DNA from: Streptomyces fungicidicus
Lineage (GTDB): Bacteria; Actinomycetota; Actinomycetes; Streptomycetales; Streptomycetaceae
Direction: 5' to 3'
Assembly: GCF_003665435.1 (NCBI RefSeq)
Contig: NZ_CP023408.1
Span: forward strand, 1 to 64,000
Length of the DNA: 64,000 nucleotides
A program made the position numbers and the translations under genes. The notes under the pieces are model-generated. The model searched no databases and was not told the origin of the DNA. It saw nothing but the letters and a program-made list of their open reading frames with translations. Positions 11,019-64,000 of the stretch are shown here, in pieces (the stretch's first letter is position 1; each line of letters opens with the position of its first letter).

Positions 11019-11029
11019 GGAGAGCGGAC

Positions 11030-13745: not shown

Positions 13746-13753
13746 CATCGCTC

Positions 13754-13797
13754 AGCCGGTGGCCCCGACCGAAACGGTCGGGGCCACCGGCTGTTTT
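13754..13797 (+). terminator. tRNA-Leu terminator
   Basis: A 17-bp perfect stem (arms 13754-13770 and 13776-13792) followed by GTTTT lies 8 nt after the tRNA. This is a clear intrinsic terminator. Confidence 0.9.
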
Positions 13798-14066
13798 CGT
13801 CGCCGGACACACCCCGCTCGTAAGACCGGGTGGCGAGCGTGATCGCGGCGCGCTTGGTAGGCAGCTCCACGGCCACGAGTGTGACGGTGTCGTGTGCGTC
13901 GCTGTCGTACGGGACGCCCCCAGGCGTCGAGGCAGTGCTCGCACGTGCGCCGGGCGGGAGGCCGACCCTGCGGTAACGGTCAACGGCGAGCCGCAGGAAG
14001 TGGTGACGGGAGGACTCCGACCGGAATTCGCACTCGGTCGCTCAGTCTCCGGATGCGCCAGACAGA
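13798..14066. other. Gene-free stretch between tRNA-Leu and the MHS transporter
   Basis: No frame here has both a ribosome site and a recognisable product. The 3' side of tRNA genes is a common integration site. I see no integrase gene and no direct repeat of the tRNA end. Confidence 0.5.
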
Positions 14067-14103
14067 CGCGGCCCCCTTCCGTCCCGGACGGAAGGGGGCC
14101 GCG
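14067..14103 (-). terminator. Terminator of the MHS transporter gene
   Basis: A 17-bp perfect stem with a CCG loop (arms 14067-14083 and 14087-14103), 18 nt past the stop codon of the leftward transporter gene. Confidence 0.85.
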
Positions 14104-14121
14104 ATCTAGGTGCCGGAGGAC

Positions 14122-15534: not shown

Positions 15535-15726
15535 GTCTCGGTCTTTCGCACGAGGGCGGAGCACAGGCGCCGGCGGCACACCGCCGACGGCCCGTCCGGC
15601 CGCGCCTTCCCGGAGGAGGGCGCGTGTACGGTACAGGCAATCTGAATGCTTCCAGACATCTCAATAATCAGTCGGCGCATATCAGAATGCGGACAGCGTT
15701 GAGGCGTGAACGGCGAGACGGCCGGC

Positions 15727-15915
15727 TCAGTCGTCCTGCGCCTCGGCCTCCACCGGCTTCGGGATCATGAAGGAGGTGGCGAAGGCGGCGGCCAGGATGA
15801 CCACGCCGGCGATCATGCCGGCGGTGCAGTCGGCGGGCGACGTGGGGTCGTCCGGCAGGGCCGCGGTCTTGACCGCGTACAGCAGCGCGAAGCCGAGGCC
15901 CGCGGACGCCCGCAA
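15727..15915 (-). pseudogene. Short membrane-protein remnant
   Basis: A 62-residue frame (possible TTG at 15915) ends ...PKPVEAEAQDD. It has two hydrophobic stretches, RASAGLGFALLYAV and GMIAGVVILAAAFATSFMIP, separated by a short acidic loop. It resembles the last two helices of a multi-helix transporter rather than a complete protein, and no full-length frame continues upstream. It could also be a genuine small membrane protein; I cannot identify a family. Confidence 0.35.
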
Positions 15916-37714: not shown

Positions 37715-37731
37715 CGTTGACGTCGTCAACG
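37715..37731. promoter_or_regulatory. Palindrome upstream of the N6-methylase gene
   Basis: CGTTGACG-T-CGTCAACG, perfect 8-bp arms, 48 nt before the ATG. CGTTGA-N5-TCAACG with the same spacing occurs upstream of the giant sigma factor gene (54440-54456). Confidence 0.6.
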
Positions 37732-43189: not shown

Positions 43190-46100
43190 TGCGCGGGCTC
43201 GATCGTCTTCAGCGCCCGGAAGGTGACCGGGTCGAGACGGACGCCTCCTTGTTTGTCCGGGTCGAGGACCGCCAGGCCGTCCAGGCGCTTCAGGAGATGC
43301 TCGGCCGCCTCGAGCGAGTCGTCCCCGCTCTTGTCGAGGAACGCGGCGGCGAGGTCGCCCGGAGTCATGACGGCCTTGCCGTCCGCGTACTCCTCGTCGC
43401 TGTAGAACTGGGCCCAGGCCGTGAGGAGGGAGACGTCGGCGGACGTCAGACCGGCCGCCCGCAGATGGGCCGTCGCGGCGTCCGGTGTCTCCAGACGCTC
43501 GCGCAGGCCCTGGAGGACCTCCTTCTGCCGCATGCCGGACCGCACGTTGTGCATGGCGGTCTCGACCAGCCCGGGCCATCCCCCGGTGGAGTCCATCAGG
43601 GCACGCCGTTCCTGCGGGGAACCGAACGGCGACTCCGGCCAGGCGCGCACACTGTCGACGGTCCACCGCTCCGGCAGCACATGGCCCGCCCCCGTCTCCA
43701 CCGCTTCCCCCGCGGCGTCCGGCGAGCAGAGGACCACGGCGTACCGACGGGACGCGCCGGGAGCCGCGTCACTGTCGGGCGGCGTGCCGCCGGTGTGCTT
43801 GACGAGCCGCTCGGCGGCCTCCCTGACCTCGTCGGCGTCCCGGCCCCGCAGGTCCACGAAGAGCACCCGGGAACCCTTGCGGCGCGAGTTGGCGGTGATC
43901 GCGTCGGTGAGGCTGTCGCCGGGTGCGACGCCGATGATGTCGAGGCCGTACCCGCCGCCGTACAGGCGCAGCCCGCGTTCGACGTGGTCGTCGCCGAGCG
44001 CCCGGGTGCACGGCACCAGCGTGGTGCGGGTGGGGTGGCCGAGCATGTCGCCGAACTGGCCCTCGGTGAGCGGGCTCATCCGCTGGACGCCGCCGGGGGA
44101 GCCGATGGAACGGCGGGCGGCGCGCGGGTTGTAGTCGTACGGCAGGTCGAACTCGGTGTCGTTCAGCTCGCTCTGCAGCTCGTTCTGGGTGCCCAGCATG
44201 TTGACCACGTTGGGGCTGCGCATCGCGTAGGCGCGTTCCTCGCCGGGAACCCGGATGAGCAGACCGAGGCCGACCATCTCGTCCAGGAAGATGGTGAGCT
44301 GACGTTCGCTGTTGAGGGGGAAGCCCTCCTGCCAGATCTCGTGGGCGGCCTCCAGCAACTCACTGGGCCGGGACGCGTGGGTGTAGCCGTGCTCGAGGCT
44401 GCGCAGGGCGACCAGGAGGGTGAGTACGCGGTAGCGGTCCTCCAGGTTGATGGTGTAGCGCAGGCGCTCCGCGATGAGTTCGCGGACCCGCTCCAGGTTC
44501 GCGACCGCCTGGACGTCGTCCCAGGTGATGGGGGCGTGACGGCCGTCGGCAGGCACGGCGCGCTGCTGCATGTAGGCGACGAGGTGGTCGCAGAAGATCT
44601 GCACCAGGTTGGCCTGGTAGTTGGTGACGCCGAGGATGTGCCAGACCAGGTCGGGGGTCTCGAAGGTGAGACCGACGGCGGCCAGGGGTTCCTCGACGAG
44701 CCCGACGGCGGCCTGCGGCTTGAGCGGACCGACGAGGATGCCCGGCCCGCCGTGCGCGGTGACCACGTTGGTGAGGTGGTTGAAGCGCTGAACCTGGTGC
44801 AGGCCGGCGAAGACGACCTTGAACGACCGGCCGGTGGTCTCCATCAGGCGCTGGAGCCGCTTGACGGTACGGAAGGTCGACTGGCCTCCACCGGTGTAGA
44901 CGGCCTGGGCGTCGGCGGTGAGGAAGGCGTCGGCCTCGTCCGCGAGCAGGAGGACACGGCGGCCGGGTTCGGCCTCGATCCACTGCTGGACCGCGTCGGC
45001 GATCGCGTCGATGCCGACGGCACGGTCGGAGACGTTCGTTCCAATGACACCGCGGCGCTTCAGCTCGGCCAGCAGGACCCGCCAGATGCCCTCAGGGGGT
45101 TCGGCATGCCCGATGTCGGCCTTGAGGAGGTCCATGTAGACGGCGATGTGGCGGTCCCGGTCGGCCTTCTGGAACACCTCGACGGCTTGCCGAAGGAGGG
45201 ACGACTTGCCGAGCTGGCGACCGCCGAAGAGGAAGATGGACCCGTCCGGGCGGAGGATCTCCTGCATCTCCTCGGCGCGTCCCTTGAAGACCTCCGGCGG
45301 AACGAGCCCCGCGACGTGCGGGGTGTAGGGGGTGTAGCCGGTCCAGGGCAGGGTGACACGCTGCGTCATCCTGAACGAACGCGGGGCGCGCGCGGCGACC
45401 CAGCCGACGACGGCCGGATCGACGACCAGGGCCTGCTGGCCGCGGTTGCGGGAGGCGAGCGCGAGTTGGCGGCGTCCTTCCGTGCCGAGGGGCTGCAGGT
45501 AGAGGATCAGATTGGCGCCGATAGCCGATTCTGGAAGGTGACGCAGTGGGCCTTCGCCGCGAAGTTCGTCGGCGATGACGACGACCTTGTACATGCGGCG
45601 TGCCTGGGAACCGAGGGCGGCGACGTAGCCGGGGGTGCTCTCGGTGATGTCGGCGCGCACGCTGAGCCGGGTGACGCCGTACCTGGCCTCCTCGACGTTG
45701 GCCTCGGTCACGGTCAGACCGAGCAGGCGCAGGACGCTCATGACCAGGCCGCGGATCTTCCGCTGGTCCCGCTCGCCGATCAGTTCCTGCCAGGCACCGA
45801 GCCCGGAGAGCGCGTTTTGCACCAGCGGTTTGTCCTCCGCGTAGTGCTGGGCCCACCAGCGGGCCCCGACGCCGCGACGGGTGAACTGGGGAGCCTCCGG
45901 GTGGGCGACGCCCTTCAGGAAGCGGGCCAGCTCCTCCCCGGCCGGTTCGGCGGGGACGGGCAGGGCTTCACCACGCCGGGCGAACGACAGGAGTTCCTCG
46001 GCGGCCACCGTCTTGCCCCGGTCCAGCAACTGCCGGATGCGCAGGCGCTCGGCGTCGGGCAGCTGAGCCGCGTCGAGCTGACGGTAGAGCCTCTCGGTCT

Positions 46101-49100
46101 GCTGCTTCTCCAGGTCGCGCAGTTCCCGGCCGATGGCGGCGACGGCCCGGAAGCGCTCCCCGAACCGGTCGTCGTGGTCGTCGCCCTCCAGGTCGAGGAG
46201 CCGGGCGGTGAAGTCGTGCTCCTCCTCGGGCTTCAGCAGGTTCTGCACCCGGATCTGGGCGAGGATCAGCTGGGCACGCCGGTGTTCGTCAGCGCATTTG
46301 CGGCCCCAGCTCACGGCCGCGTCGGCGATGCGCTGCCGCCACTCGGCGAGCTGCGCGGCCGGCATGGCGGCGCCGACGATGCGCTCCTGCTCGAGCCGCT
46401 CCAGCAGACGGTTGGCGAGGTGCAGGTCGCCCGTCTCCCGGTGGCACTGCAGCGCCACCGCCGGGTCGGCAGGACCGAGCAGACCCAGCATCGCCCCGAA
46501 CGCGTCCGGATGTCCGAGATCGGGTTCGTCCTGCTCCTCGTGGACGTGCCAGCGCAGCCCGGGCAGGTGCAGCAGGCCCTCGGCGGGCGGCCGGAACCCC
46601 GTGTCGCGGGGCTCGGGGGCGTAGGAGCCGTCGAGCCAGCGCAGCAGGAGCGCGAGGAGGGCGCCGCCCACGCCGGGCAGCGGCTCGGCCTGACGCGCGT
46701 CCGCGATCGCGCGCATCAGGTCCCGGCCGATGTCACGACCGCCGGACGGACGCGGGGCCGAAGCGACGCGCAGCGCCGTCGTCAGCAGGTCCTTGACGGT
46801 CTTGATGTGGGTACGGAGCTGGTCACGGGCCGCCGAGTGGATGTCGCTCTTGGACTGCTTCGGCGTTCGTTTGGCCCGGTCGGTGGTGTCGATGATCCGG
46901 TCGGCGGCGTCGGAGCGCTTGTAGTGCTCCTCCATCTCCGTGGCGAGCCCCTCCGCCTCGATCCGCCCCTCGGCCCAGTCCTGGATCAGCTTCAGGGTGT
47001 GCCCGAGCCGGCCGTCGGGCGCGGCCAGGGTCTGCAGGACGATCGTGCCGCGCTGGAGCTTGATGGTGCGCAGCGGCAGGTCCAGCGCGAGCTGCCGGGC
47101 CCGGTCGCCGATCTCCTCCTGCCGGTCCGTGACCGGCGTCACCGTCGACTTGTCCAGGTCGCCCGGCTGTATCCCCGTGGACTGCCGTACCGCGTGCACC
47201 AGTTCGTCGACCACCGGCGCCCACGGCTCGGGAACGCCCGGCATCGACGTGAAGTCGGTGAGGACGCTGCTCGCCCAGCGCGCCGACAGCCCACTGCGGA
47301 TGGCCGCGGTCAGCAGGACCATGTAGGCGTCACGGTCGTCGTCCCGGGAGTGCCCCTCGTTCATCGCCTCGATGAGCTCCTCGGCCCGCACCTGGAGGTC
47401 GGAGGCCTCGGCCGGGGAGGTGTGGAAGGCGGCGTCCGCGAACGCGAGCGCGAGAGTGCGGTGGGCGGGGGCGCCGGCAGCGCGGGTCAGCCAGTACGAC
47501 TCGGCGAGCCGGCCCTCGGTGACGAGGGTCTCCACCGGGGAGGGAGCACCCGCCCAGACGTCCGACAGGACGGGGACGGGGACGGGGACGGGGGCGGGGG
47601 CGGCCGGGGCGGAGGGCTCGGCGGGCGCCGACTCCGACTCCGGAAAGTCGGCGGAGCGTTGCGGGACTGGGGCGGGGGCCGGCACGGCGGCCTCCGGGGC
47701 GGGAGCTGCCGGTGCCGTCTCCTCCGTCTCCTCCGCATCTTCCTTCTCCGGAGCGCCGGTGGATGCCTCGGAGGGCTGCCGAGCCCCGGGCAGCGACACT
47801 CCGGAGTCCGCCGCGGATTCACCGGCCCCGGCCGTCATACCCACGGTGCCGTCGGACACGAACTCCCCGGCCGGGGCCTCTTCCGGCTCCGTCCGGGCGG
47901 CCGGGCCGGGCGCGTCCTGAACGACCGGCTCGGCGGCTTCCGCTGTGGGGGACGGAGACTCTGCGGCCTCCTCGCGGAAGTCGTCGGACCGTTGAGGTTC
48001 CGGATCGGGCTCCGGCTCGCTGCGGTCCCCCTGCTCCGTCCCGTCACCGGAGTCACCGGAGTCACCGGCTTCCGCCACGGCGGACTGCATGGCCCCGGCG
48101 TCCGCCACGTCTTCGCGTAGCTCGCGGAGCCGCTGCTCGAAGTGCTCGATCTGACCTCGCAGGCTCTTCCGCAGCAGATCGTTCGTGGCCATGTCGTACA
48201 TGGCCTGCGCCTCGTCCAGCGCCTCCGCGGTCGACCCGATCTCCAGGTCGACCGCCTGCTGACGGCGCTGCTCGTCCCGCAGCCTCTCGACGAGCGTCCG
48301 GGCCGCGGCCCAGTCCTGGTCGTCGCCCCATCCCTCGTCCGCACCGGCCGCCCTGAACGCCTGGTCCAGTGCCCGTCGTCGCCGGACCCACGACAGGGTG
48401 TCCCGCAAGAGCTCCCGACCGTCGGCCTGCCGCCCCTCGCGGAGCGTCGCGGCGAAGGCATCCAGCCTTCCGGCCACCGCCGTCGCCGACTCGTTCAGCC
48501 GCACGAGCTCCCGCTCGAGGCCGTCGGCGTCCAGTTCCACCACGGTCGCGTTCCCTCGCCCTTCCCCGGAGACGGCCGTCCCGCCGTCCGCTTCCGACTC
48601 CGTCGCTTCACCGGTGCCCTGCTCATGGCCCCGGCCCCGGTGCACACATGTCAGCCGCTCGTAATCGGCTTCCGTGAGAGGAGCGGCATCGCGCAACGCG
48701 GCCTCCAGGAGCTCCCCCGAGTGGCTGTGCGCCCACGAGTGGGCAGGCGCGTCGGAGAAGAGGGCGTAGCCGTGGAGCAGAAGCTGCGCCAGGTCCGGCG
48801 GCAGGGCCTCCAGCATGCGCGTGAGCTGCTCGAGGCCGGGATCCTGGATCTCGTCCTCGAACCCCAGCTCACGCAGTCGCTCTTCGGCGATCGACGTGCC
48901 GCATCCGCAGACGTTGATCAGCAGTCGCTCCGGCGCCCGGGTGACCCACATGCGGGCGCCCGCCGACTTGCGCAGCTTCGCGGTCGCCGGGCCGCCCTGG
49001 AACTGCAGCGCGGCCGGCCCGTGCGCCTGCTCGACGTGCCGGAACAACGAGAGCACCAGGTCGGGCATCTCCTGCAGCCAATGCCGGAGCGACGAAACCG

Positions 49101-49107
49101 AGTACAC
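43186..49107 (-). CDS. Giant (1973 aa) P-loop ATPase, STAND/AAA-like
   Basis: GTG at 49107 follows a G-rich site. Residues 1-170 form an N-terminal domain with Cys/His patches (INVCGCGTS). Residues 190-340 are helical/coiled coil; 340-520 is a Pro/Ala/Glu-rich linker; 520-1100 is helical. About 1130-1230 is beta-rich. The NTPase is near 1290-1390: Walker A FLFGGRQLGKSSLLRQAV, Walker B VLLLADEADAFLTA, then a winged-helix-like ARC2-type part. The last 300 residues contain a second alpha/beta domain (GLDIIGVAPGDSLTDAIT, RVLFVDLRGRDADEV). The layout (sensor arms plus one NTPase) recalls STAND immune proteins. It is the first gene of a two-gene operon. Confidence 0.7.
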   Translation of the reverse strand: MYSVSSLRHWLQEMPDLVLSLFRHVEQAHGPAALQFQGGPATAKLRKSAGARMWVTRAPERLLINVCGCGTSIAEERLRELGFEDEIQDPGLEQLTRMLEALPPDLAQLLLHGYALFSDAPAHSWAHSHSGELLEAALRDAAPLTEADYERLTCVHRGRGHEQGTGEATESEADGGTAVSGEGRGNATVVELDADGLERELVRLNESATAVAGRLDAFAATLREGRQADGRELLRDTLSWVRRRRALDQAFRAAGADEGWGDDQDWAAARTLVERLRDEQRRQQAVDLEIGSTAEALDEAQAMYDMATNDLLRKSLRGQIEHFEQRLRELREDVADAGAMQSAVAEAGDSGDSGDGTEQGDRSEPEPDPEPQRSDDFREEAAESPSPTAEAAEPVVQDAPGPAARTEPEEAPAGEFVSDGTVGMTAGAGESAADSGVSLPGARQPSEASTGAPEKEDAEETEETAPAAPAPEAAVPAPAPVPQRSADFPESESAPAEPSAPAAPAPVPVPVPVLSDVWAGAPSPVETLVTEGRLAESYWLTRAAGAPAHRTLALAFADAAFHTSPAEASDLQVRAEELIEAMNEGHSRDDDRDAYMVLLTAAIRSGLSARWASSVLTDFTSMPGVPEPWAPVVDELVHAVRQSTGIQPGDLDKSTVTPVTDRQEEIGDRARQLALDLPLRTIKLQRGTIVLQTLAAPDGRLGHTLKLIQDWAEGRIEAEGLATEMEEHYKRSDAADRIIDTTDRAKRTPKQSKSDIHSAARDQLRTHIKTVKDLLTTALRVASAPRPSGGRDIGRDLMRAIADARQAEPLPGVGGALLALLLRWLDGSYAPEPRDTGFRPPAEGLLHLPGLRWHVHEEQDEPDLGHPDAFGAMLGLLGPADPAVALQCHRETGDLHLANRLLERLEQERIVGAAMPAAQLAEWRQRIADAAVSWGRKCADEHRRAQLILAQIRVQNLLKPEEEHDFTARLLDLEGDDHDDRFGERFRAVAAIGRELRDLEKQQTERLYRQLDAAQLPDAERLRIRQLLDRGKTVAAEELLSFARRGEALPVPAEPAGEELARFLKGVAHPEAPQFTRRGVGARWWAQHYAEDKPLVQNALSGLGAWQELIGERDQRKIRGLVMSVLRLLGLTVTEANVEEARYGVTRLSVRADITESTPGYVAALGSQARRMYKVVVIADELRGEGPLRHLPESAIGANLILYLQPLGTEGRRQLALASRNRGQQALVVDPAVVGWVAARAPRSFRMTQRVTLPWTGYTPYTPHVAGLVPPEVFKGRAEEMQEILRPDGSIFLFGGRQLGKSSLLRQAVEVFQKADRDRHIAVYMDLLKADIGHAEPPEGIWRVLLAELKRRGVIGTNVSDRAVGIDAIADAVQQWIEAEPGRRVLLLADEADAFLTADAQAVYTGGGQSTFRTVKRLQRLMETTGRSFKVVFAGLHQVQRFNHLTNVVTAHGGPGILVGPLKPQAAVGLVEEPLAAVGLTFETPDLVWHILGVTNYQANLVQIFCDHLVAYMQQRAVPADGRHAPITWDDVQAVANLERVRELIAERLRYTINLEDRYRVLTLLVALRSLEHGYTHASRPSELLEAAHEIWQEGFPLNSERQLTIFLDEMVGLGLLIRVPGEERAYAMRSPNVVNMLGTQNELQSELNDTEFDLPYDYNPRAARRSIGSPGGVQRMSPLTEGQFGDMLGHPTRTTLVPCTRALGDDHVERGLRLYGGGYGLDIIGVAPGDSLTDAITANSRRKGSRVLFVDLRGRDADEVREAAERLVKHTGGTPPDSDAAPGASRRYAVVLCSPDAAGEAVETGAGHVLPERWTVDSVRAWPESPFGSPQERRALMDSTGGWPGLVETAMHNVRSGMRQKEVLQGLRERLETPDAATAHLRAAGLTSADVSLLTAWAQFYSDEEYADGKAVMTPGDLAAAFLDKSGDDSLEAAEHLLKRLDGLAVLDPDKQGGVRLDPVTFRALKTIEPAQ

Positions 49108-53606: not shown

Positions 53607-53875
53607 TCAGGCGGGGTGGCGCGGGCCGTGGCCTGGGCGTGGGGTGAGGGTGGACGTGTAGTTCTCGCCGTCCACGAGCGGGTTCTCCAGGGTGAGGCCG
53701 GCGTCGGCCATGCGGTCGTACTCGGCGAGGATCAGTTCCTTCGTGCGGTACGTGCCGTAGGCCTTCGTGTCGTTGTCGCGGGTGACGTTGAAGGTGTCAA
53801 ATACGTAGGACGTGTCGTCGCGGGACAGGCCGTACAGGTGGCAGAAGAAGGCGTCCAGCTCCGCACGGCCCGGCG
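53607..53875 (-). pseudogene. Eco57I/PglX-type methylase, C-terminal fragment
   Basis: The frame ending at 53607 reads ELDAFFCHLYGLSRDDTSYVFDTFNV, then TRDNDTKAYGTYRTKELILAEYDRMADAG. This is the diagnostic tail of type IIG / BREX PglX-like methylases ('hLYGL.rdd..YiLdtF', 'YGtYRTK.lIL..Y..M'). Upstream of about 53875 the coding sense is lost and a kinase fragment begins in another frame. The rest of the gene (over 800 codons) is gone: a deletion scar inside the island. Confidence 0.75.
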
Positions 53876-54273
53876 GCGATCTGCGCGCCGATCGCGGCGG
53901 CCCCGGAGACGGGCGGCTGGGACTCCTCCTCGACGAGGTCGCGCAGCGTCTCGCCGTCCAGGAACTCCATCGCCAGGAACGGCAGGCCCTCCGCCCGCTC
54001 GTCGATGCCGCCCGCCACGAGACGGGTCAGGTTGGGGTGGCGCAGTCTGCGGGTGATGCGCACCTCGCGGGAGAAGCGCTGCACGGCCTTGGCGTCGTCA
54101 CCGGTGTCGATCCGCGCGCCCGTGCGACTGCGCAGGATCGTCTTGACGGCCACGGTGCGCTCGGGGGAGCCCTCCGGAGCGTGCAGGTCCTCGGCGCGGT
54201 GGACCTCCCCCATGTTGCCCCTGCCGATGACCTGTCCGATGCGGAACCTGCCGTCGACCAGCTCCTGGCTCAC
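53797..54273 (-). pseudogene. Truncated Ser/Thr protein kinase (N-lobe only)
   Basis: GTG at 54273 opens a kinase: VDGRFRIGQVIGRGNMGEVHRAED (Gly loop), TVAVKTIL (catalytic Lys), FLAMEFLDGETLRDLVEE (hinge). After PPVSGAAAIGAQIAAG the family would continue to the HRD and DFG motifs, but the frame instead runs into unrelated residues and stops at 53797. The break at about 53875 is where the methylase fragment begins. It could still make a 158-aa inactive protein. Confidence 0.75.
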
Positions 54274-54439
54274 TGCCCCTCGCTCCTTCGTCCCTCGTGC
54301 ACGTTCCCGCGTCCTGCCCGCCCTGCCCGGGTGGACGGGAACCCCCTCACGTGTCGCTGCGCCCACTCATCGTGACAGAGGGGAAGCGGCGGCAGGCGAA
54401 ACCGTACACGACGAGCGATCGAAGTGATAGGTGACAGTG

Positions 54440-54471
54440 CGTTGACACCATCAACGTGCGGGACTTAGCGT
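54440..54471 (+). promoter_or_regulatory. Promoter with overlapping palindrome for the giant sigma factor operon
   Basis: TTGACA (54442-54447), 18-nt spacer and TAGCGT (54466-54471). The -35 box is inside the palindrome CGTTGA-N5-TCAACG (54440-54456), so a bound protein would block RNA polymerase. The same palindrome is at 37715-37731. Confidence 0.65.
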
Positions 54472-54502
54472 GGGTGGTCGAGGGAAGTTTAGGGGTGAAC
54501 TA

Positions 54503-57500
54503 ATGGCGCAGTGGTCTGCGGTCGACGCCGGATCGTCCGGTCTGCGTGCGGCGCTCGGTGAGGTGCTGGCGCGGCTGCGGCGCGCGGCCGTGGGCGGCGT
54601 CGTCCCGGAGCGCGTCTTCGCCGAGAGCGTGCGGGCGCTCGCCCTGGGGGACGCCGAGCGGGAACGGCTGCGCCAGGAGCTGGCCCGGCTGGGGCTGCCC
54701 GTGAGGGAATTGCAGATGCACGCAGGGGGTGACCAGCGGGGTGGTGAAAAGGTTGCACAGAATCGTGTAGAAAATGTGTTCCCCCGCCTGTCGCTCGTAC
54801 AGAACCTGCTGGCCCGCTACGCGGACGCCGACGGGTACGTGACCCCGAGGGTCGTGGAAGGGGTGATCCGGCTCACCGGGCTCGGCGCGCACGAGGCCGC
54901 TCGGCTCCGTGTGGGTGCTCTGGTGCGGGGCCCGGAAGGAGAGCCCGACGCCGGGAACGGTGAGGAAACCGATGAGCCGGACGCGCCCGATGTCGCGGAG
55001 GACGCCGAAGCCGAGGCGCCTGGCCCGGGGAAGGACGCGTCCACGGGGGACGTGTCACGAGGGGACCTCGCGGAGTCGGTGGCCGCGGCGCACGCCGTGC
55101 TGGACACCGACCGGCGGGTGCGGCGCCCCGGCAGCCGGTTGCTGAGCGCGCAGGCCGAGGTCGGCTTGGCCGTGCTGCTGCGGGGCGGACCGGACCGCAT
55201 CGCGCAGGAACCGGGCGAGGACGAACTGAAGGCGCTCTCTCCCGAAGACGTCAGAATCCGCGCCCGGGACTGCCTCGTGGTGCACAATCAGCGGCTCGTG
55301 CACTCCCTGGTGCGGCCCTACCTGGAGCAGGGGCTCGACTACGAGGACCTCCTCCAGCACGGTTTCCTCGGTCTCCTCAGGGCGGCGCGGAAGTTCGACC
55401 CGACCATGGGCAACAAGTTCTCCACCTACGCCACCTGGTGGATCCGGCAGTCCATCACCCGGGCCATCGCCGACGAGGGCGCGTTGATCCGCGTCCCGGT
55501 GCACATGCACGAACAGATGCGGAAGGTGGCCAGGGCCGAACGTGCCCTCGCGGCGGAGGGGCGGCGCGCGGGCGACGCCGATGTCGCGGTGCGGTGCGAC
55601 ATGACCCTGCAGAAGGTGCAGGAGATCAGAAAGCTCACCCGGCGTACCGACTCCCTGGACCGGGTCATCGGCGATGGCGCCACCCTGGCGGACTTCGTGG
55701 CGGAGACCCATGTCCTGCCGTCGGTGGAGCGGCAGGTGGTGGGAGCCCTGTTCACGGAGAAACTCCTGGCCGTGGTGGACACGTTCACCGAACGGGAGGC
55801 ACGCATCCTGGTGCGGCGGCTCGGGCTCGACGGGGACGAGCCCTCGACGCTGGACGACCTCGGACGTGAGTTCGGAGTCACCCGGGAGCGCATCCGGCAG
55901 ATCGAGGGCAAGGCCCGGCCCGTGTTGCGGGAGCGGGTGCGTGAGGCGGGTCTGGTCGGTCTGGACGACGTGTGCGAAAAGGCCGAGCAGGCGGCGGAAC
56001 GCGCCGCCGAGGCCAAGCGGGCGGCGAGGATCGCCCGAGTCACCCTCGCGGCCCGCACCGCCCGAGCCCGGGCCGCCCTGCGCAAGGCCAGGGCGGAGCG
56101 CATCGCCCGGGCCGCCGAGGAGCAGGCCGCGGTGGTTGCGGCTCCGATACCGACCCCGCTGGCGGGGGACAGGGAGGAGGACGACGGCGACAGGTCTGTC
56201 GCCGAGGCGGAGCTGGAGCTCGCCGTAACAACCACCCACCAGGAGAGCGCCCGAGTCGAGGCGATTGCCGCCGCCGATGAGGCCGTCGACACCGAGGTGG
56301 CGCCGGACGTTACCGAGGCGGCTCCGGACGCCGTCGCCGCCGACTGGGAACGCGCTTGCCGGATGTCGGAGGAGCCCGTCGACCACCTTTGGTGGCTCGC
56401 CGACTACGCGCGTGCGGCGCTGGGGGACGACGGTCTGGCGGCGGTGCTGGGGCAGCCGGCCGCCGACGCCGTGGTGCGGGAGGCCCGCGAGAACAACCAC
56501 CTTTCACGTCCGGTGCTGACCGCGCTGGAAGTGCTGCGCCGGGTCTTCGACGCCCTGGTGGCCGCCGGGCAGCGGCCGGAGGACTTCTTCGACCGCCCCG
56601 CCGAAGCGCTCGTCGGGGTGACTCCCCGCGACTATCTCGTGCGCAGGCCCCTCGTGGACCGTGAGTCGCGGCTGGCCGTACGGGACGCGCTGCGGGAGTT
56701 CCTCGCCGTGGTGGCGAAACCGGCGGAGCCCGAGAGCGTGCAGGCGCCGGAGCCTAAGAGCGTGCAGCCACCGGAACCCGAGAGCGAGCAGGCACCGGAG
56801 CCTGAGAACGAGCAGGTACCGGAGCCTGGGAATGAGCAGGTACCGGAGCCCGAGGCCACGCAGGTGTCCGGTTCCGAACCGGTATCGGTACCGGAGACGG
56901 GACGAGCGGCGGAGACCGCCGGCCCGGCGGCCGGCACGCCGCAGATCACCGCCGACTGGGACAAGGCCCTGACGCTGACGCGCCCACAGCTGGGCGGAGG
57001 AGTGACCTGGCTCGCCGAGTACGCTCTGCTCGCCCTGGGACATCTGCAACTGTCCGTGCTGCTCGGTTCCTCCGCCACGGACGCGGTGGTGCGCGCCGCG
57101 CGGCAGCGGGGGACGCTCGACCGGCCCGTGGTCGAAGCCCTGGAAGTCCTGCAGAAGGTTCTCGACTCCGTCAAGAACGCGGGACTGCGGCCCGAGCACT
57201 TCTTCGAGCGGCCCGCCGGAGCGTTGGTCGGTGCCACCCCCCGGGCGCACCTGGCCGCAAGACCGCTGGTGAGCGCCGAGTCGCGCCTTGCCGTCGGCGC
57301 CGCCCTCGCGGAGTTCGTCGCCGCGCGCCCGCCACGGACGGTTCCTGCCTCCGGAAACGGCAGTGCCGGTGAGAGCACGGTCGCGGAGCAGGCAGCCTGC
57401 GCGACAGGCGGACGTCCGGCAATCCCTCCCGCTCCTTCCGTACCGGTTGAGCCGCGGTCGGCCGACACCGAGCCGTCTCTCGCCGAGGTCCGCGCCCGGC

Positions 57501-58324
57501 ACGATGCCCGGATCGCCCTGCTGACGCAGGAGAACGAGCTTCGGCTGGACCAGGAACGGCGCCGTGCCGACGAGCGTGTCGCGGCCGTACGGGCCGACGC
57601 CGAGCGACAGCTCGACGCTTGGGAAGAGGTGCTGTTGCACCGGGCGGACCGATCCCGGGAGCGGCGTGAGAAGCACGTGCGGCGCCAGGCCGAGGAGCAT
57701 CTCGCGCGTCTGAAGGAGCAGCACCGCGAGGCTTACGAGGCAGTACTGCGCCGTGCCGAGCGTGCGGAAGAGGCCGCCCGGGAGACGGCCGGCACCAGGC
57801 AGCGGGCGGACGAGCTGGAGCAGAGGCTGCGCGACTACCGCGAGGGTGCCGAGGCCCGCATCGGGGACCTCGAGGTACAGCTGAGTGAGACCCGGGCGGT
57901 GGCCGCCGAGCGTGAACGCGCCGCCGGGGCGTGGGTCGCCGAGCTGGAGACCCGTCTACGGAAGGCCGAGACGACTGCCGACGAGCGGGAGCGGGCCGCC
58001 GCGTCGGCACGGGAGGAATACCGCCAGGGCGCCCGACTGCGTGTCGCCGAGGTGGAGGCACGCCTGCGGGAGGCCGAAGCGGCCGTCGCCCAGCGGGACC
58101 TGTTCGTCGAGGCGGCACGGCGGCGCGCCGAGGAGGCCGAGCAGGAGGCGGCCCAGCGCATCGCACAGAGCGAGCACGACGCCTGGATCCGCATCACCGA
58201 CCTGCAGACGCAACTCGGCGAGATGCGGACGCAGCTCAGCGAGGCGCAGGCACAACTGGCCGAGGCCCAGGAAGCAGTGGACCGCGGTCGCGGCTCCCTC
58301 CGGGACCGCTGGCGCCGCTCCTGA
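54503..58324 (+). CDS. Giant RNA polymerase sigma factor (sigma-70 regions 2-4 fused to repeat and coiled-coil domains)
   Basis: 1273 residues from ATG 54503 (AGGGGTGA upstream; the GTG at 54470 lies in the -10 box). Residues 1-130 resemble sigma region 1.1-like helices. Region 2 is at about 262-320 (YEDLLQHGFLGLLRAARKFD, FSTYATWWIRQSITRAI), region 3 at about 322-400 and region 4 at about 402-483 (FTEREARILVRRLGL, GREFGVTRERIRQIEGKA). Then comes an Ala/Arg coiled coil (490-545), a novel domain (about 612-737), a PEPE-type linker (738-800), a second copy of that domain (815-942) and a long coiled coil (993-1266). Group 1/2 sigma factors are 300-600 residues. It is 53 nt before drmA-like and likely co-transcribed. 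Confidence 0.85.
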   Translation: MAQWSAVDAGSSGLRAALGEVLARLRRAAVGGVVPERVFAESVRALALGDAERERLRQELARLGLPVRELQMHAGGDQRGGEKVAQNRVENVFPRLSLVQNLLARYADADGYVTPRVVEGVIRLTGLGAHEAARLRVGALVRGPEGEPDAGNGEETDEPDAPDVAEDAEAEAPGPGKDASTGDVSRGDLAESVAAAHAVLDTDRRVRRPGSRLLSAQAEVGLAVLLRGGPDRIAQEPGEDELKALSPEDVRIRARDCLVVHNQRLVHSLVRPYLEQGLDYEDLLQHGFLGLLRAARKFDPTMGNKFSTYATWWIRQSITRAIADEGALIRVPVHMHEQMRKVARAERALAAEGRRAGDADVAVRCDMTLQKVQEIRKLTRRTDSLDRVIGDGATLADFVAETHVLPSVERQVVGALFTEKLLAVVDTFTEREARILVRRLGLDGDEPSTLDDLGREFGVTRERIRQIEGKARPVLRERVREAGLVGLDDVCEKAEQAAERAAEAKRAARIARVTLAARTARARAALRKARAERIARAAEEQAAVVAAPIPTPLAGDREEDDGDRSVAEAELELAVTTTHQESARVEAIAAADEAVDTEVAPDVTEAAPDAVAADWERACRMSEEPVDHLWWLADYARAALGDDGLAAVLGQPAADAVVREARENNHLSRPVLTALEVLRRVFDALVAAGQRPEDFFDRPAEALVGVTPRDYLVRRPLVDRESRLAVRDALREFLAVVAKPAEPESVQAPEPKSVQPPEPESEQAPEPENEQVPEPGNEQVPEPEATQVSGSEPVSVPETGRAAETAGPAAGTPQITADWDKALTLTRPQLGGGVTWLAEYALLALGHLQLSVLLGSSATDAVVRAARQRGTLDRPVVEALEVLQKVLDSVKNAGLRPEHFFERPAGALVGATPRAHLAARPLVSAESRLAVGAALAEFVAARPPRTVPASGNGSAGESTVAEQAACATGGRPAIPPAPSVPVEPRSADTEPSLAEVRARHDARIALLTQENELRLDQERRRADERVAAVRADAERQLDAWEEVLLHRADRSRERREKHVRRQAEEHLARLKEQHREAYEAVLRRAERAEEAARETAGTRQRADELEQRLRDYREGAEARIGDLEVQLSETRAVAAERERAAGAWVAELETRLRKAETTADERERAAASAREEYRQGARLRVAEVEARLREAEAAVAQRDLFVEAARRRAEEAEQEAAQRIAQSEHDAWIRITDLQTQLGEMRTQLSEAQAQLAEAQEAVDRGRGSLRDRWRRS

Positions 58325-58377
58325 GCCCGTCGGCCGCCCACCCGTCCCGTTCCCCACTCATCAACATCAGGAATGTC

Positions 58378-61300
58378 ATGGACCCCAGACAGGAACTCGT
58401 CTCCTACCTGCGGCGGCAACTCGTCGGACCGGTCGACGGCGACGACGAGACGCTCGACGCACCGCCCGACCGGCAGTACCTGATGGGCACCCTCTACCCA
58501 CAGGAAGCCGATCTGCAGGGTCAACTCGACCTCGCCCGGGAAGAGTTCGAAGGAGCTGGCACCGAGCGGGGGGCCGAGGACACCGCACCGGCGGGCGACC
58601 CCGTACCGGAGTCGAATTCCTGGCTGCCGTCCTCGCTCGGATTCAGCTTCTACACCGACGCCGAGACCCTCGAGGTCGAGTGCTCCGCCGCCCGCTACCG
58701 CACCCAGTCGCGCAGCGACCAGCGCGGCAGGACGTGGCAGCGGATCGCCCTACCGGCCGAGACACACCTCCTCGGCCCGGGCCGGGAGCAGGTCTCCGTC
58801 CTGGACGCGCGAGCTGAACTGCGCGTCAAGCGCCGTGACTTCGGAAACGGGAAGCTCGTCACCGTCGCCCTCGTCAACGCCGCCCGGTACGACTCCGCGC
58901 TCGGCAAGAGCGCCCACTGGGACGGAATGCTGTTCCAAGTGGAGCTGCGGGCGCGGCCCGTGGACGGGCAGGTGCTCCAGTACCCGAGTGTCCGCCTCAC
59001 CAGCCGCGACCTGGAGGAACAGGAGCTGCGCCTGCAGTACCGGCATGTGCGCACCCACGCCGTCGGCCACGGGTGCGCCGTCGAGGAACTGCGGGACGGC
59101 GACGACCGGACGGTGACGGGACTTCGGACGGCCGTGATGCCCGAGGCGGAGGTCACGGGCGTACGAGCCGCCGGACTGACCGACACACCGGTGCTCAGCC
59201 TCGCCCACCTCGCCGACCCGACCGTCTCCGTCGACCAGCTCCGTGAGGAACTGGCCGAGTTCGCCTCCGCCTACCGGGCCTGGTACGTCGGTCAGCTCAA
59301 CACCGAGGTACCCGAATGGGGCCGCGAGGCAGCCGAGCGCGTCCTCGGGCGGATCGGCACCGCGGTCTCCCGCATCGAGTCCGGCGTCCGTACCCTCTGC
59401 GACCCCCGACGCCCCGAACTACTGCACGCCTTCCGGGCCGCCAACCACGCCATGGCCCTGCAGATGCGCCACTCGGCAGCCGACCTCGCCGGCACCAGGC
59501 GCCCCCGCCGCGACAACGGCGTACCGCCGGACCCGCAGCCGTACGCGGACGCCACCTGGCGCCCCTTCCAGCTCGCGTTCTTCCTGCTGGCCGTCGACGG
59601 AGCCGTCGACCCCCGACACCCGGACCGTGCCGTCACGGACCTCATCTGGTTCCCGACCGGTGGTGGCAAGACCGAGGCGTACCTGCTGCTGGCCGCGTTC
59701 GTCATGGTGCTGCGCCGGGGTGAACCCGACGGCGGAGGCACCGCCGTGCTCAGCCGGTACACGCTCAGCCTGCTGACCACACAGCAGTTCCAGCGCGCCG
59801 CGACGACCGTGTGCGCCCTGGAGTCCATGCGCCGGGCCGACCCGGCCACCTACGGCGAGGAGCCGTTCTCCATCGGACTGTGGGTCGGTGAGACCACCAC
59901 CGCCAACAGCTACGACAAGGCGCGCCGCGACTTTGACAACGCGCGCGAGGCCGCCACCCCGGACGACGTGTTCATCCTCGACCGCTGCCCGTGGTGCGGC
60001 ACGCGCGTCCTGCCCGCCCACAAGTCGCCCGACATCGACGACTACGGGGTGCGTGCCGCCGCCGACTCCTTCGCCTTCTTCTGCCCCAGGGACGAGTGCC
60101 TCTTCCACGACGAACTGCCCGTCGCCGTCGTGGACGACCACCTGTACGACCGTCCGCCCACCTTCGTCCTCGGCACCGTCGACAAGTTCGCCCGCCTAGC
60201 CTGGGAGCCGCGCGCCGGACGGCTCTTCGGCGCCGGCACCGGGCACCGGCCGCCGTCCCTCGTCATCCAGGACGAACTGCACCTGCTCACCGGCCCGCTC
60301 GGCACCACCGTCGGCCTCTACGAGTCCGCCGTCCTCGGACTGTGCGCCGCACCGGACGGCACCGGGCCCAAGGTCGTGGCGTCCACCGCCACCATCCGCC
60401 GCTCCGGCGAGCAGGTCCGCGCGCTCTACGGGGGAGACGTCCAGCTCTTCCCGCCCGCCGGACTCGACGCCCGCCACTCCTACTTCGCCGAGCCCGACAC
60501 GACCCGGCCGGGTCGCCGCTACGTCGGAGTCATGGCCCAGGGACACACCGCCGGCCGTGCCTCCGTCGCCACCGCCGCAGCCCTGCTCCAGGGCGCCTGG
60601 GAACTGCCCCAGGAACACCGGGACGCCTACTGGACTCTCGTCGCCTACCACCACAGCCTGCGCGAACTGGGCCGCACGGTCACCGCCGCCGCCGACGACA
60701 TCCCCGCCCAGCTCGCCGGACTCGACACCGGCGACGGCGTCCGCCCCCTGCCGGACCACCAGGTCGAGGAACTCACCAGCAACCTGCCGCGCTCCGAGCA
60801 GCCCGTGCTCCTCGACCGGCTGGAGAAGAGCTGGGACGACACGGGGTCGGTGTCCTTCCTGCCCTGCACCAACATGCTGTCCGTCGGCGTCGACGTGAAG
60901 CGGCTCGCCCTGATGCTGATGCAGGGGCAGCCCAAGACGACCGCCGAGTACATCCAGGCCACCAGCCGCGTGGGCCGCCACGCCGTGCCCGGACTCGTGG
61001 TGACCTTCTTCAACGCCACCCGCCCCCGCGACCGTTCGCACTACGAGACCTTCGACGTGTACCACCGCGCGCTCTACCGGCACGTCGAGCCGACCAGCGT
61101 CACCCCCTGGTCCGTACCCTCCCGCCGCCGCGCCCTGCACGCCGTGCTCGTCGTCCTCGTACGGCACCGGCTCGGACTGGCGGCCGAGAACCAGGCCGGG
61201 CGGATCCTCGACCGGATGACCGAAGCGGAGGAACTGGCGGAGGAGTTGGCGGTGCGGGCGGACACCGCGGAGCCGGGGGCCGGTGACGCGGTGCGCAAGG

Positions 61301-61506
61301 AACTCGCCGGGCTGCTCGCCGCCTGGGAGGACCTCGCGCGCCAGGCCCGCAAGGACGGCCGCGAGCTGTACTACCGCAGCCAGGGCAAGGGCCAGTCCAA
61401 CCTCATCAAGAGCTTCGAGCAGGTCCACGGACTGTGGGAGACACCCAACTCGATGCGCAACGTCGACCGGGAATGTCAGATGACAGTGAAGGGAGCCGAC
61501 CTGTGA
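58378..61506 (+). CDS. DrmA-like helicase (DISARM core helicase family)
   Basis: 1042 residues from ATG 58378 (AGGA 8 nt upstream). The N-terminal 400 residues are specific to the family. Helicase motifs: Walker A DLIWFPTGGGKTEAYLLLAAF (about 420), motif II QDELHLLTGPLGTT (about 630), motif III-like ASTATI, motifs V-VI NMLSVGVDVKRLALMLMQGQ and TAEYIQATSRVGR (about 830-865). A CPWCG/CPRDEC zinc-like insert (about 535-575) lies between motifs I and II. 'FPTGGGKTEAY' with 'DELH' is typical of DrmA. SF2 DNA translocase expected. Its stop overlaps drmB-like (GTGA). Confidence 0.85.
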   Translation: MDPRQELVSYLRRQLVGPVDGDDETLDAPPDRQYLMGTLYPQEADLQGQLDLAREEFEGAGTERGAEDTAPAGDPVPESNSWLPSSLGFSFYTDAETLEVECSAARYRTQSRSDQRGRTWQRIALPAETHLLGPGREQVSVLDARAELRVKRRDFGNGKLVTVALVNAARYDSALGKSAHWDGMLFQVELRARPVDGQVLQYPSVRLTSRDLEEQELRLQYRHVRTHAVGHGCAVEELRDGDDRTVTGLRTAVMPEAEVTGVRAAGLTDTPVLSLAHLADPTVSVDQLREELAEFASAYRAWYVGQLNTEVPEWGREAAERVLGRIGTAVSRIESGVRTLCDPRRPELLHAFRAANHAMALQMRHSAADLAGTRRPRRDNGVPPDPQPYADATWRPFQLAFFLLAVDGAVDPRHPDRAVTDLIWFPTGGGKTEAYLLLAAFVMVLRRGEPDGGGTAVLSRYTLSLLTTQQFQRAATTVCALESMRRADPATYGEEPFSIGLWVGETTTANSYDKARRDFDNAREAATPDDVFILDRCPWCGTRVLPAHKSPDIDDYGVRAAADSFAFFCPRDECLFHDELPVAVVDDHLYDRPPTFVLGTVDKFARLAWEPRAGRLFGAGTGHRPPSLVIQDELHLLTGPLGTTVGLYESAVLGLCAAPDGTGPKVVASTATIRRSGEQVRALYGGDVQLFPPAGLDARHSYFAEPDTTRPGRRYVGVMAQGHTAGRASVATAAALLQGAWELPQEHRDAYWTLVAYHHSLRELGRTVTAAADDIPAQLAGLDTGDGVRPLPDHQVEELTSNLPRSEQPVLLDRLEKSWDDTGSVSFLPCTNMLSVGVDVKRLALMLMQGQPKTTAEYIQATSRVGRHAVPGLVVTFFNATRPRDRSHYETFDVYHRALYRHVEPTSVTPWSVPSRRRALHAVLVVLVRHRLGLAAENQAGRILDRMTEAEELAEELAVRADTAEPGAGDAVRKELAGLLAAWEDLARQARKDGRELYYRSQGKGQSNLIKSFEQVHGLWETPNSMRNVDRECQMTVKGADL

Positions 61507-63353
61507 GCCGCACACTCCGGGTACGTCAGTCGCAGACCGTGGTGCCCTTCGGGGTCGGGGCCGTCTTCGACATCCAGGGCGAGTCGTTCGTCGCCACCGG
61601 CATCGGCGACTGGCCCTCCCGCGGCAGACAGCCCATCGACTCGCCCCGGCTGGCCGACCGCCTCGGCGTCTCCGGCTTCTACGCCGCGCCCGCCGCCGCG
61701 GGCGACCGCTTCGACGTCGCGGACGCACCCGGAGCGCCGTACATCCGCTTCCCCTCCTGGCTGTTCTGCGGTGCCTGCCGACGGATGAAGCGGTGGAGGA
61801 TCGCCGACGAGAAGCGCGGCCAGGCACCGCGCTGCCCCTCCTGCTCCCCGACGCGGACGCTGGCGCCGATGCGGTTCGCTCAGATCTGCCAGGCCGGGCA
61901 TCTCAGCGACGTCGACTGGTGGTTCTGGGCGCACTCGCGGCGCGACGGTGGCGAACGGCGGCAGTGCGGGGAGCGCGAGAAGCTGCGCTTCCTCGTCTCC
62001 GAACGGGCCTCCGGCCTCGAAGCGCTCTCCGTCGCCTGCACCGCGAAGGGCTGCGGAGCCGTCCGGGACCTGCTCGACATCCTCGGCACCCACGGTATGC
62101 GCTGCTCGGGACGGAACCCGTGGCAGCGTGCCGGTGAAGCCGTCGACTGTCCCCGCCCGGTGCAGATCGTGCAGCGCACCGCCGGCAACCTCTACTACCC
62201 GATCGTGCACTCCGCGCTCGACATCCCCGAGACCGACGTCCCCGCGCACACCGACGACGCGCTCGCGGACCAGGTCCGCGAACACCACCTCTGGGTGTCG
62301 CTGTGCCGCGACCCCGCCTCGCCCCGTGCCCCCCTGTTCCGGCAGATGATCCAGGAGGACACGGCGGCCGACGACGGTCTGCTGGACGCACTCCTGGCCG
62401 AGGAGACGGGCGGAACGAGCCCTGCCGTTACGGCTGCCGCGCCCGACGGCCCCGCACGGCCCGACCTGAGCCGGGAGGAATGGGCCGCGTTCACGGCACC
62501 CGCCCCGCCCGCCACCCGTGACTTCGCCCTGCGCGAGACCACGCTCGGCCTGGCAGGCGAGACCGACGAACCCTGGGCCGGTCTCGCGAGCCGCTTCGGA
62601 CGCGTCGTCCTCGCCGACCGGCTCCGTGAGGTCCGTGCCCTGTCCGGCTTCACCCGGGTTTCCCCGGACGCCGCCGTCGTTCCCGTCGACACCTCGCGCC
62701 GGCTGAAGTGGCTGCCTGCCGTCGAGGTCTTCGGCGAGGGCATTTTCCTCACCCTCGACCAGGGCGAGCTGAAGGACTGGGAGGAGGACCCGGAGGTACG
62801 CAGACGCGTCAAGGGCATGCGGGCCGACCTCGACCGCTCCTTCCAGAAGGACCGACTGCAGAACGTGACCGGTCCCGAACTCTCCCCGCGCTTCGTCCTG
62901 TTGCACACCCTGGCCCACCTCGTGATCCGCCAGCTGTCCTTCGAGTCCGGCTACACGACGGCGAGCCTGCGCGAACGGATCTACGCCCGCCCCGAACAGG
63001 ACCAGTACGGCATCCTCGTCTACACCGCCGCGGGGGACGCCGAAGGAACCCTCGGCGGACTGGTCCGCCAGGGCGAGCCACCACGGCTCGCCGAAACGCT
63101 GCTGCGGATGGTCGAGTCCGCCGCCTGGTGCTCCGCCGACCCGCTGTGCGCCGAACACTCGGGGCAGGGCTTCGGCAACCTCAACCGGGCCGCCTGCCAC
63201 GCCTGCGCCCTGCTCCCGGAGACCAGCTGCGAGGCCGGTAACAGCCTCCTGGACCGGGCACTCGTCGTCGGCGGCGAACGGGTTCCCGGCTACCTGCAGT
63301 CGATCGTCACCGCGGCCCGCGCCGCCGCGGCGGGCGCCCTGGAGCGAACATGA
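61503..63353 (+). CDS. DrmB-like protein (DUF1998)
   Basis: 616 residues from a GTG overlapping the drmA-like stop, with AAGGGAG upstream. N-terminus RTLRVRQSQTVVPFGVGAVFDIQGESF is the DrmB start. A four-Cys zinc site FCGACRRMKRW...RCPSCSP lies at about 89-120. The DUF1998 domain is at 460-600 (LLHTLAHLVIRQLSFESGYTTASLRERIY, DQYGILVYTAAGDAEGTLGGLV, Cys cluster WCSADPLC...NRAACHACALLPETSCE). In DISARM, DrmA and DrmB form one complex; the same is expected here. Confidence 0.87.
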   Translation: MSRTLRVRQSQTVVPFGVGAVFDIQGESFVATGIGDWPSRGRQPIDSPRLADRLGVSGFYAAPAAAGDRFDVADAPGAPYIRFPSWLFCGACRRMKRWRIADEKRGQAPRCPSCSPTRTLAPMRFAQICQAGHLSDVDWWFWAHSRRDGGERRQCGEREKLRFLVSERASGLEALSVACTAKGCGAVRDLLDILGTHGMRCSGRNPWQRAGEAVDCPRPVQIVQRTAGNLYYPIVHSALDIPETDVPAHTDDALADQVREHHLWVSLCRDPASPRAPLFRQMIQEDTAADDGLLDALLAEETGGTSPAVTAAAPDGPARPDLSREEWAAFTAPAPPATRDFALRETTLGLAGETDEPWAGLASRFGRVVLADRLREVRALSGFTRVSPDAAVVPVDTSRRLKWLPAVEVFGEGIFLTLDQGELKDWEEDPEVRRRVKGMRADLDRSFQKDRLQNVTGPELSPRFVLLHTLAHLVIRQLSFESGYTTASLRERIYARPEQDQYGILVYTAAGDAEGTLGGLVRQGEPPRLAETLLRMVESAAWCSADPLCAEHSGQGFGNLNRAACHACALLPETSCEAGNSLLDRALVVGGERVPGYLQSIVTAARAAAAGALERT

Positions 63354-64000
63354 CCATCAGCTACCTCGACCTGGACCCCGACCAGCGGGCCGGCCTCGAC
63401 AGTCTTCCCTTCGACGGCAACCACCTGGTCGGCGGGCCGCCTGGCAGCGGCAAGAGCGTGCTGGCCGCGCAGCGCGCGGCCATGCTCGCCCTCACCGGCA
63501 CCCCGGTGGTCCTGCTGACCTACTCCAACCTGCTGCGTCAGTCACTCGCCGGCACGGTGCACGCACTGGGCCCCGCGGACCGCTCGGTGCGCGTCATGAC
63601 CGCACACCGCTGGCTCGCCGAGTGGTACGGAGCCACGCCGCCGGGCAGTGGCGACGGCTGGTACGACTGGGACGCCCTCCACAACCGTGCAGCCGAGACC
63701 GCCCCCACCGTCGGACCCACGCTGGTCATCGACGAAGGCCAGGACCTGCCGCCGGAGTTCTACCTGCTCTGCCGCATGCTGGGCGCCCGTACGACCGTCT
63801 TCGCGGACCAGTGCCAGCGGCTCACCGATACCAACTCGACCCTCGACGAGATCGTCCGCAACCTCGGCCGGTGCACCCGGCACGAACTCGACGGCAATCA
63901 CCGCAACACCGAACAGATCGCATCCCTGGCGGCCCATTTCCACACCGGAGCCGACGTGCCGATCCTGCCCGCCCGCCAGGGACCGGTGCCGCGCCTACAC
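63350..64000 (+). CDS. SF1 (UvrD/DUF2075-like) helicase, N-terminal part, cut by window end
   Basis: 217 residues visible. ATG overlaps the drmB-like stop (ATGA). LDPDQRAGLDSLPFDGNHLVGGPPGSGKSVLAAQRAAMLAL is the Q-motif and Walker A; TLVIDEGQDLPPEFYLL is motif II (DEGQD), and FADQCQRL with HELDGNHRNTEQIA are motifs III-IV. It is the fourth gene of the sigma-drmA-drmB cluster, so the system extends beyond the window. Confidence 0.85.
   Translation, partial: MTISYLDLDPDQRAGLDSLPFDGNHLVGGPPGSGKSVLAAQRAAMLALTGTPVVLLTYSNLLRQSLAGTVHALGPADRSVRVMTAHRWLAEWYGATPPGSGDGWYDWDALHNRAAETAPTVGPTLVIDEGQDLPPEFYLLCRMLGARTTVFADQCQRLTDTNSTLDEIVRNLGRCTRHELDGNHRNTEQIASLAAHFHTGADVPILPARQGPVPRLH

Follow-up and report, generated by a model that had tools for sequence, protein, structure and literature searches.

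What is a sigma-70 factor doing at the head of an operon whose other genes encode two DISARM-like proteins and a helicase? The window, by which we mean the whole 64,000-nucleotide stretch of DNA analysed here, covers the initial 64 kb of a 927-kb Streptomyces replicon in a genome of 7.67 Mb, and it bears genes for a sigma factor, DrmA, DrmB and an SF1 helicase as one operon. A preliminary description had recognised these four same-direction genes and suggested a new defence system. The coordinates and family profiles verify the gene content:

54503 (ATG) to 58324 (stop), plus strand: drm-sigma, a sigma-70 factor of 1273 aa with Pfam regions 2, 3 and 4
58378 to 61506, plus strand: drmA, a YprA-family SF2 helicase of 1042 aa with intact GGGKT, DELH and SRVGR motifs
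61503 (GTG) to 63353, plus strand: drmB, a DUF1998/MZB protein with a C-terminal cysteine cluster
63350 to 64435 of the contig (63350 to 64000 in the window), plus strand: hel, a minimal SF1 helicase of 361 aa with Walker A GPPGSGKS and Walker B VIDEGQD
53857 to 54294, minus strand: stub of a divergent Ser/Thr kinase-DruE3-like helicase gene, a decayed N-terminal fragment of 122-143 codons

The spacings had been given as 53, 4 and 4 nt; the gap of 53 nt between sigma and drmA stands, whereas both 4-nt values are overlaps (drmA/drmB and drmB/hel). Downstream of 64435 lies an unrelated minus-strand gene for a secreted protein. The gene type of the stub also adjoins sigma in seven related loci.

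The window DrmA has a homologue of solved structure in the Serratia DrmA (E = 2e-149) and matches the PADLOC DrmA profile (E = 1e-204), and DrmB scores well above its NCBIfam cut-off (DrmB_fam; 440 bits versus 240). Hel has the Walker A, Walker B, V and VI motifs of UvrD/GajB-like SF1 helicases and appears as a generic SF1 protein in the profile searches (UvrD and NERD-helicase matches). Its AlphaFold model, built from an alignment of only 5 sequences, has a mean pLDDT of 47 and a pTM of 0.39 and is not counted as evidence. A relationship to HelD was considered and rejected, as the 31 bits obtained against a cut-off of 419 were counted as generic SF1 similarity.

DISARM systems of classes 1 and 2 consist of DrmA, DrmB, DrmC, DrmD or DrmE and a methylase. 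The cassette shares with them a DrmA helicase and a DrmB (DUF1998) protein that are homologous over nearly their full length and encoded by adjacent separate genes. However, its core is devoid of methylase, DrmC, DrmD and DrmE and pairs DrmAB with sigma and a minimal SF1 helicase, and the window DrmA falls just below the NCBIfam DrmAS cut-off (E = 2e-269; 897 bits versus 950). In agreement with the initial statement that neither a methylase nor a PLD nuclease is present, no methylase was detected in the operon, directly downstream of 64435 or among the profiled neighbours of the A1 and A2 loci described below; no DrmC lies directly downstream, and PADLOC and NCBIfam gave no match to the DrmC phospholipase-D nuclease, DrmD or DrmE among the operon proteins. 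The profiled neighbours of related loci are kinase-DruE, McrBC, UvrD or NERD-helicase genes, and a C5-methylase occurs near group B loci only. Because the methylase and DrmC features are lacking, we consider the cassette a DISARM-related variant rather than a member of DISARM, and read it as a new variant with a putative sigma subunit. A second, more classical DISARM-like locus (L008; G000:C1:5276001-5296000, 6119-15788) is found on the chromosome of the same genome, where neither sigma nor hel accompanies the genes for a NERD-UvrD helicase, DrmA, DrmB and a DrmMII-like C5-methylase.

Whether sigma belongs to the cassette was assessed from relatives of DrmA in 198 genomes of the order, in 297 genomes sampled from the class and in five named contigs of Streptomyces, the neighbourhoods being examined over as much as about 20 kb. 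Sigma, drmB and hel are present at all loci with a DrmA of 55% or higher identity to that of the window. Profiles of 66 DrmA neighbourhoods identified both sigma and hel in 30, hel only in three and neither in 32; the last (L099), where the sequence stops within or just after drmA, is uninformative. With three more fusion loci, the sigma-bearing loci amount to 33, all with hel and drmB, and span four actinobacterial families, among them that of Streptomyces. The occurrence of sigma next to drmAB elsewhere, set beforehand as a test of the first proposal, is thereby established, and the complete DISARM gene set that would likewise have counted against the proposal is not present downstream. Within the order, the sigma cassette is present in 22 of the 198 sampled genomes (about 11%). 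As the host genome encodes only four other sigma-70 relatives, random proximity of a sigma gene is estimated at ~1% per locus, and the co-occurrence with hel and drmB at 33/33 sigma-bearing DrmA loci excludes a chance association.

On the DrmA tree, 28 sigma-bearing rows form one clade (SH-aLRT = 99) with the fusion loci in a nearby clade, and the sigma label changes 3 times on this tree versus a shuffled mean of 22. Sigma is not present at the more distant DISARM-like loci of the DrmA set. The suggestion of a new defence system is therefore retained in part: there is a conserved DrmA-DrmB-SF1 cassette with sigma, but it constitutes a clade within DISARM-like DrmA and not an unrelated system. 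A search of plasmids with sigma returned generic factors only, and the plasmid DrmA relatives of Deinococcus and Photobacterium have hel and no sigma. In these plasmid relatives a protein of 467-576 aa is encoded 3' of hel (L090, 15215-16945; L091, 15298-16749; L092, 9061-10464), for which Pfam gave no match in the two cases searched (L090 and L091).

The order sigma-DrmA-DrmB-SF1, for which a search in other genomes had been proposed, is present there as one of four arrangements. Sigma is first and on the same strand as drmA in A1 and A2 (18 loci), divergent from drmA in A3 (5 loci, including L095), divergent from the gene of a NERD-UvrD helicase located ahead of drmA in B (5 loci, including L096), and located on the C-terminal side of hel, 3' of drmB, in the fusion layout (5 loci). 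As its orientation varies from co-directional to divergent and fused, the association of sigma withstands rearrangement. The genes adjoining the cassette differ between layouts: a giant Ser/Thr kinase-DruE3-like helicase in many A1 loci, McrB-like AAA, McrC and UvrD in A2 loci, and PDC-M33-like genes in four Streptomyces B loci, several also with a C5-methylase. The kinase-DruE3-like gene, divergent from sigma in L046 (6-6041, minus strand) with relatives in L040, L042, L045 and L047-L049, is a fused kinase-Druantia-type gene in which a Ser/Thr kinase is joined to a YprA helicase resembling DruE3; the retrieved pieces encode 1324-2013 aa. At G000:C1:2318299-2322279 lies a gene for a related helicase that has no kinase part. 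At L071-L082, sigma-less DISARM-like operons with a ~1,600-residue TmtA/helicase protein are flanked on the left by a divergent HTH plus GHKL-motif protein resembling PDC-M33A.

The sigma factor itself combines a conventional core with unusual ends:

54542 to 54931, plus strand: two N-terminal region-1.1-like domains (residues about 14-68 and 94-143), found with hhalign
55274 to 55933, plus strand: sigma regions 2-4 (residues 258-477), with the Trp pair for melting and the -35 helix both preserved, by Pfam and residue comparison
56333 to 57322, plus strand: C-terminal extension with two ~125-aa repeats with no assigned fold (residues 611-735 and 815-940; 53% identical), then a coiled-coil-like tail

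Regions 2, 3 and 4 (residues 258-325, 337-403 and 426-477), first described as intact in this 1273-aa protein, all exceed their Pfam cut-offs and carry the melting and -35 recognition residues of the sigma-70 family, and drm-sigma matches the HrdB and SigA structures with phmmer E values of 2e-54 to 8e-56. The first region-1.1-like copy resembles housekeeping region 1.1 (hhalign probability 75, E = 2.5e-5) and the second copy (probability 90). An AlphaFold model of the N-terminal half, from an alignment of only 6 sequences, has a mean pLDDT of 55 and a pTM of 0.25, a quality too low for it to serve as evidence. The label 'giant' fits the window protein but not the family, since the long C-terminal extension and the 1273-aa size are traits of subclade A1, absent from A2 and A3, and sigmas outside this subclade are often about 420-540 aa.

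We compared 33 drm-linked sigmas with 11 housekeeping factors (E. coli numbering). The two sets are near-identical at the DNA-contact residues of regions 2.3, 2.4 and 4.2: R584, E585, R588 and Q589, which recognise the -35, are invariant in all 30 drm-linked sigmas that have region 4, Y430 is invariant throughout, and the melting Trp pair is present in most. By contrast, the core-RNAP contact E407 of region 2.2 is Glu in 11/11 housekeeping factors and His in 32/33 drm-linked sigmas, so binding of core RNAP by drm-sigma may be weak or different. A branch supported at 100/99 in the sigma tree separates the housekeeping factors from all drm-linked sigmas and fusions. Other differences from HrdB/SigA are the tandem region-1.1-like domains at the N-terminus, the C-terminal extensions and the fusions. 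Purifying selection acts on the sigma core, with a dN/dS of 0.12-0.19 compared with 0.38-0.44 for the whole protein in two A1 pairs, the N- and C-terminal parts diverging fast. Three A2 loci (L050, L051 and L053) have sigmas of 416-420 aa without region 4 and the melting Trp pair, possibly a product of decay or a non-transcriptional form; as drmA, drmB and hel are intact there, sigma appears to be able to decay.

In two lineages sigma has been joined to other proteins. Five genomes of one family (L097, L098, L135, L136 and L137) contain a single frame of 936-1026 aa composed of hel followed by sigma. In each of the five, the Walker A of the hel half reads GSGMA or GSRMA and no longer has its lysine, and the Walker B (VVVDGT or VVVDGG) no longer has its acid, whereas the sigma half retains regions 2-4 with the melting and -35 residues in all five; hence the retained function of the fusion is likely that of sigma. 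In group B, sigma is fused to a C-terminal HTH (none seen in L063) and to a GHKL-motif protein matching PDC-M33A, a label based on motifs read by eye (EATQNSLDE and GGSYGLGKAT) and on the PDC-M33A profile match; a PDB search with the GHKL-like part gave no match. The sigma-HTH-GHKL gene of L061-L064 (minus strand, about 3600-7200) adjoins a DUF6339 protein matching PDC-M33C, with a C5-methylase also near the fusion in three of the four. That sigma has been joined to defence-type proteins in two separate cases speaks for an action of sigma together with the system, beyond an effect on its promoter alone. Together with fixed cluster membership, the fusion to a dead helicase in one family suggests that transcription machinery may be part of the defence itself.

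The region upstream of the sigma gene indicates that the operon is probably regulated:

54404 to 54471, plus strand: sigma promoter/operator, conserved in ten A1-type loci
54404 to 54411, plus strand: GTACACGA box
54441 to 54455, plus strand: palindrome GTTGACACCATCAAC over the -35
54442 to 54447, plus strand: -35 TTGACA, followed by an 18-nt spacer and the -10 TAGCGT at 54466 to 54471

The A1 element is made up of the GTACACGA box, about 28-30 nt further on a GTTGACA..ATCAAC palindrome covering a perfect -35, and then TAnnnT. This composite motif occurs once in the 7.67-Mb host genome (0 in the reversed control) and at eight other sigma loci of the A1 subclade, and related repeats precede the A2 sigmas; the GTTGAC palindrome, confined to A1 and near relatives, was not found in A3, B or the fusions. 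In the window the operator palindrome is found 4 times versus 0.32 expected, and a perfect GTTGACGTCGTCAAC palindrome resembling it lies at 37716-37730 without the GTACACGA box. A second copy of the promoter/operator precedes a 1538-aa ORF (at 14509) 3' of the cassette in L039/L044. The window also encodes a 1973-aa AAA-type protein (43186-49107, minus strand) for which family searches gave hardly any match; a relative at 30% is located just 3' of the cassette in L039/L044, behind a RecQ fragment and under the same promoter/operator as sigma. Judged by its elements (TTGACA-18-TAnnnT), the operon promoter is of the housekeeping class and should be readable by the primary sigma HrdB.

From these data we suggest, with a probability of roughly 0.45, that the cassette is a DISARM-related immune system with a dedicated sigma-70 factor as a working subunit that would target DrmAB-hel to promoters. 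The homology of DrmAB and the defence genes nearby point to a putative role in defence. DrmA-DrmB would form the DNA-loading helicase core and hel an adaptor or second motor, while sigma, alone or with RNA polymerase, would recognise promoters of the housekeeping type on the DNA of incoming phages, melt them and place or load DrmAB-hel there. In Serratia DrmAB, a trigger loop bars dsDNA and the complex binds ssDNA or 5' overhangs (PMC9142583). Promoter targeting is attractive because DrmAB needs ssDNA to escape autoinhibition and single strands are exposed at an open promoter; a promoter-melting sigma tied to a helicase fold could thus supply both the address and the single strands. Gene content, conservation, placement on the trees, fusions, intact or lost motifs and the promoter are observed directly; we infer the interaction of these proteins, RNAP binding, promoters as the target and phage defence as the outcome. 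The two roles suggested at first, that sigma might redirect RNA polymerase or might recognise promoter or melted DNA, are likewise hypothetical. Several points weaken the subunit reading: the loading of DISARM was demonstrated with ssDNA and 5' overhangs, and a free 5' end is absent from a transcription bubble; E407 is replaced in nearly all drm-linked sigmas; sigma is without region 4 and the Trp pair in L050, L051 and L053; and the divergent sigma of ten loci also fits a regulator. A stronger version, transcription-coupled DISARM, in which a (pseudo)helicase-tethered sigma would find the DNA and take DrmAB to invader promoters so that the start of transcription becomes the trigger of immunity, is put forward only tentatively.

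The most serious rival makes sigma a transcription activator dedicated to the defence operon to which it belongs, and to some few neighbours, providing inducible expression and taking no part in the attack on phage DNA. Sigma is a transcription factor by family, and the conserved palindromic promoter directly 5' of the A1 sigmas, with related repeats in A2, would suit such a role, as would the uniqueness of the composite motif in the host genome, its reappearance at a second gene in L039/L044 and the divergent orientation of sigma in ten loci, a common layout of regulators. Nevertheless, with a housekeeping-type operon promoter and the housekeeping -35 helix of sigma no private promoter class is apparent, and because of this housekeeping specificity sigma would make a poor operon-specific switch. 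The palindrome is moreover restricted to A1 and near relatives, and one would hardly expect a simple regulator to be fused to a dead helicase 3' of drmB or to a GHKL-like protein. We give this explanation a probability somewhat below that of the subunit reading. In view of the fusion to a dead helicase and of recognition helices of the housekeeping type, a physical component is somewhat more likely than a regulator only, and targeting is likewise somewhat more likely than simple operon regulation.

Region 4 is a usual target of phage anti-sigma proteins, and sigma could alternatively be a guard, decoy or backup for the primary sigma, which phage anti-sigma factors or RNAP modifiers bind or spare, thereby triggering DrmAB-hel or keeping the operon transcribed. 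A region 4 near-identical to that of housekeeping factors beside a changed region 2.2 core contact, tandem region-1.1-like domains suggestive of autoinhibition, and fast divergence of the N- and C-terminal parts would agree with this; however, there is no known anti-sigma partner or phage trigger for these hosts and fast divergence has other causes. We consider this reading unlikely. That sigma is a hitch-hiking or decaying neighbour without a role in the system seems very improbable: the truncated sigmas without region 4 in three A2 loci speak for it, but sigma is kept with hel in 33/33 loci of four families and four layouts, evolves under purifying selection and has been fused to system proteins in two lineages. 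Sigma as a working subunit is the preferred reading.

Among known defence systems, MZA (MzaABCDE) resembles the cassettes in having a sigma-70 factor among its genes, at the head of the system. A GHKL-like ATPase is encoded in group B cassettes, and a MutL-like one in MZA. The sigma factor of MZA is encoded by mzaA (PMC9523054), and MZA is the only known defence operon with a sigma factor that we found in the literature searched. The cassette nevertheless lacks the MZA B-E genes: MutL, Z1 and AIPR genes are absent from the window operon and from the scanned neighbours of related loci. An assignment of sigma as MzaA was rejected, as the match is confined to residues 430-672 of 683 (135 bits) and NCBIfam gives 233 bits against a cut-off of 800; only the generic sigma core is matched, and the MzaA profile also hits sigma-70 factors in 218/296 genomes and in E. 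coli and B. subtilis. ARMADA comprises a YprA helicase, a BrxHII-like helicase, a PglX-like methylase and, in type II, a GajB-like helicase (PMC12458937). A YprA-family helicase and a UvrD/GajB-like SF1 helicase within one operon are common to both, but the cassette has DrmA and DrmB split as in DISARM, no PglX, no BrxHII, a small SF1 protein without a RelE domain, and sigma. The YprA-family survey lists many uncharacterised DISARM-like classes with no sigma factor in its main text (PMC12458937), a McrBC census includes a DISARM-like neighbour and no sigma (PMC11090510), and in a BREX survey the only such feature is a SIGMA-HTH-like domain in BrxL (PMC12839542). No prior report of a sigma-DrmAB cluster was found in the literature searched.

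Sigma factors are known as transcription regulators. If our reading is true, a fixed sigma part in a helicase defence, fused to a catalytically dead helicase, would represent a new use of these proteins, and it would suggest one way in which a methylase-less DISARM-type system could choose its target DNA. The cassette would also be a practical starting point for explaining the sigma factor of MZA, and its fusion forms permit a sharp biochemical test of the role of sigma.
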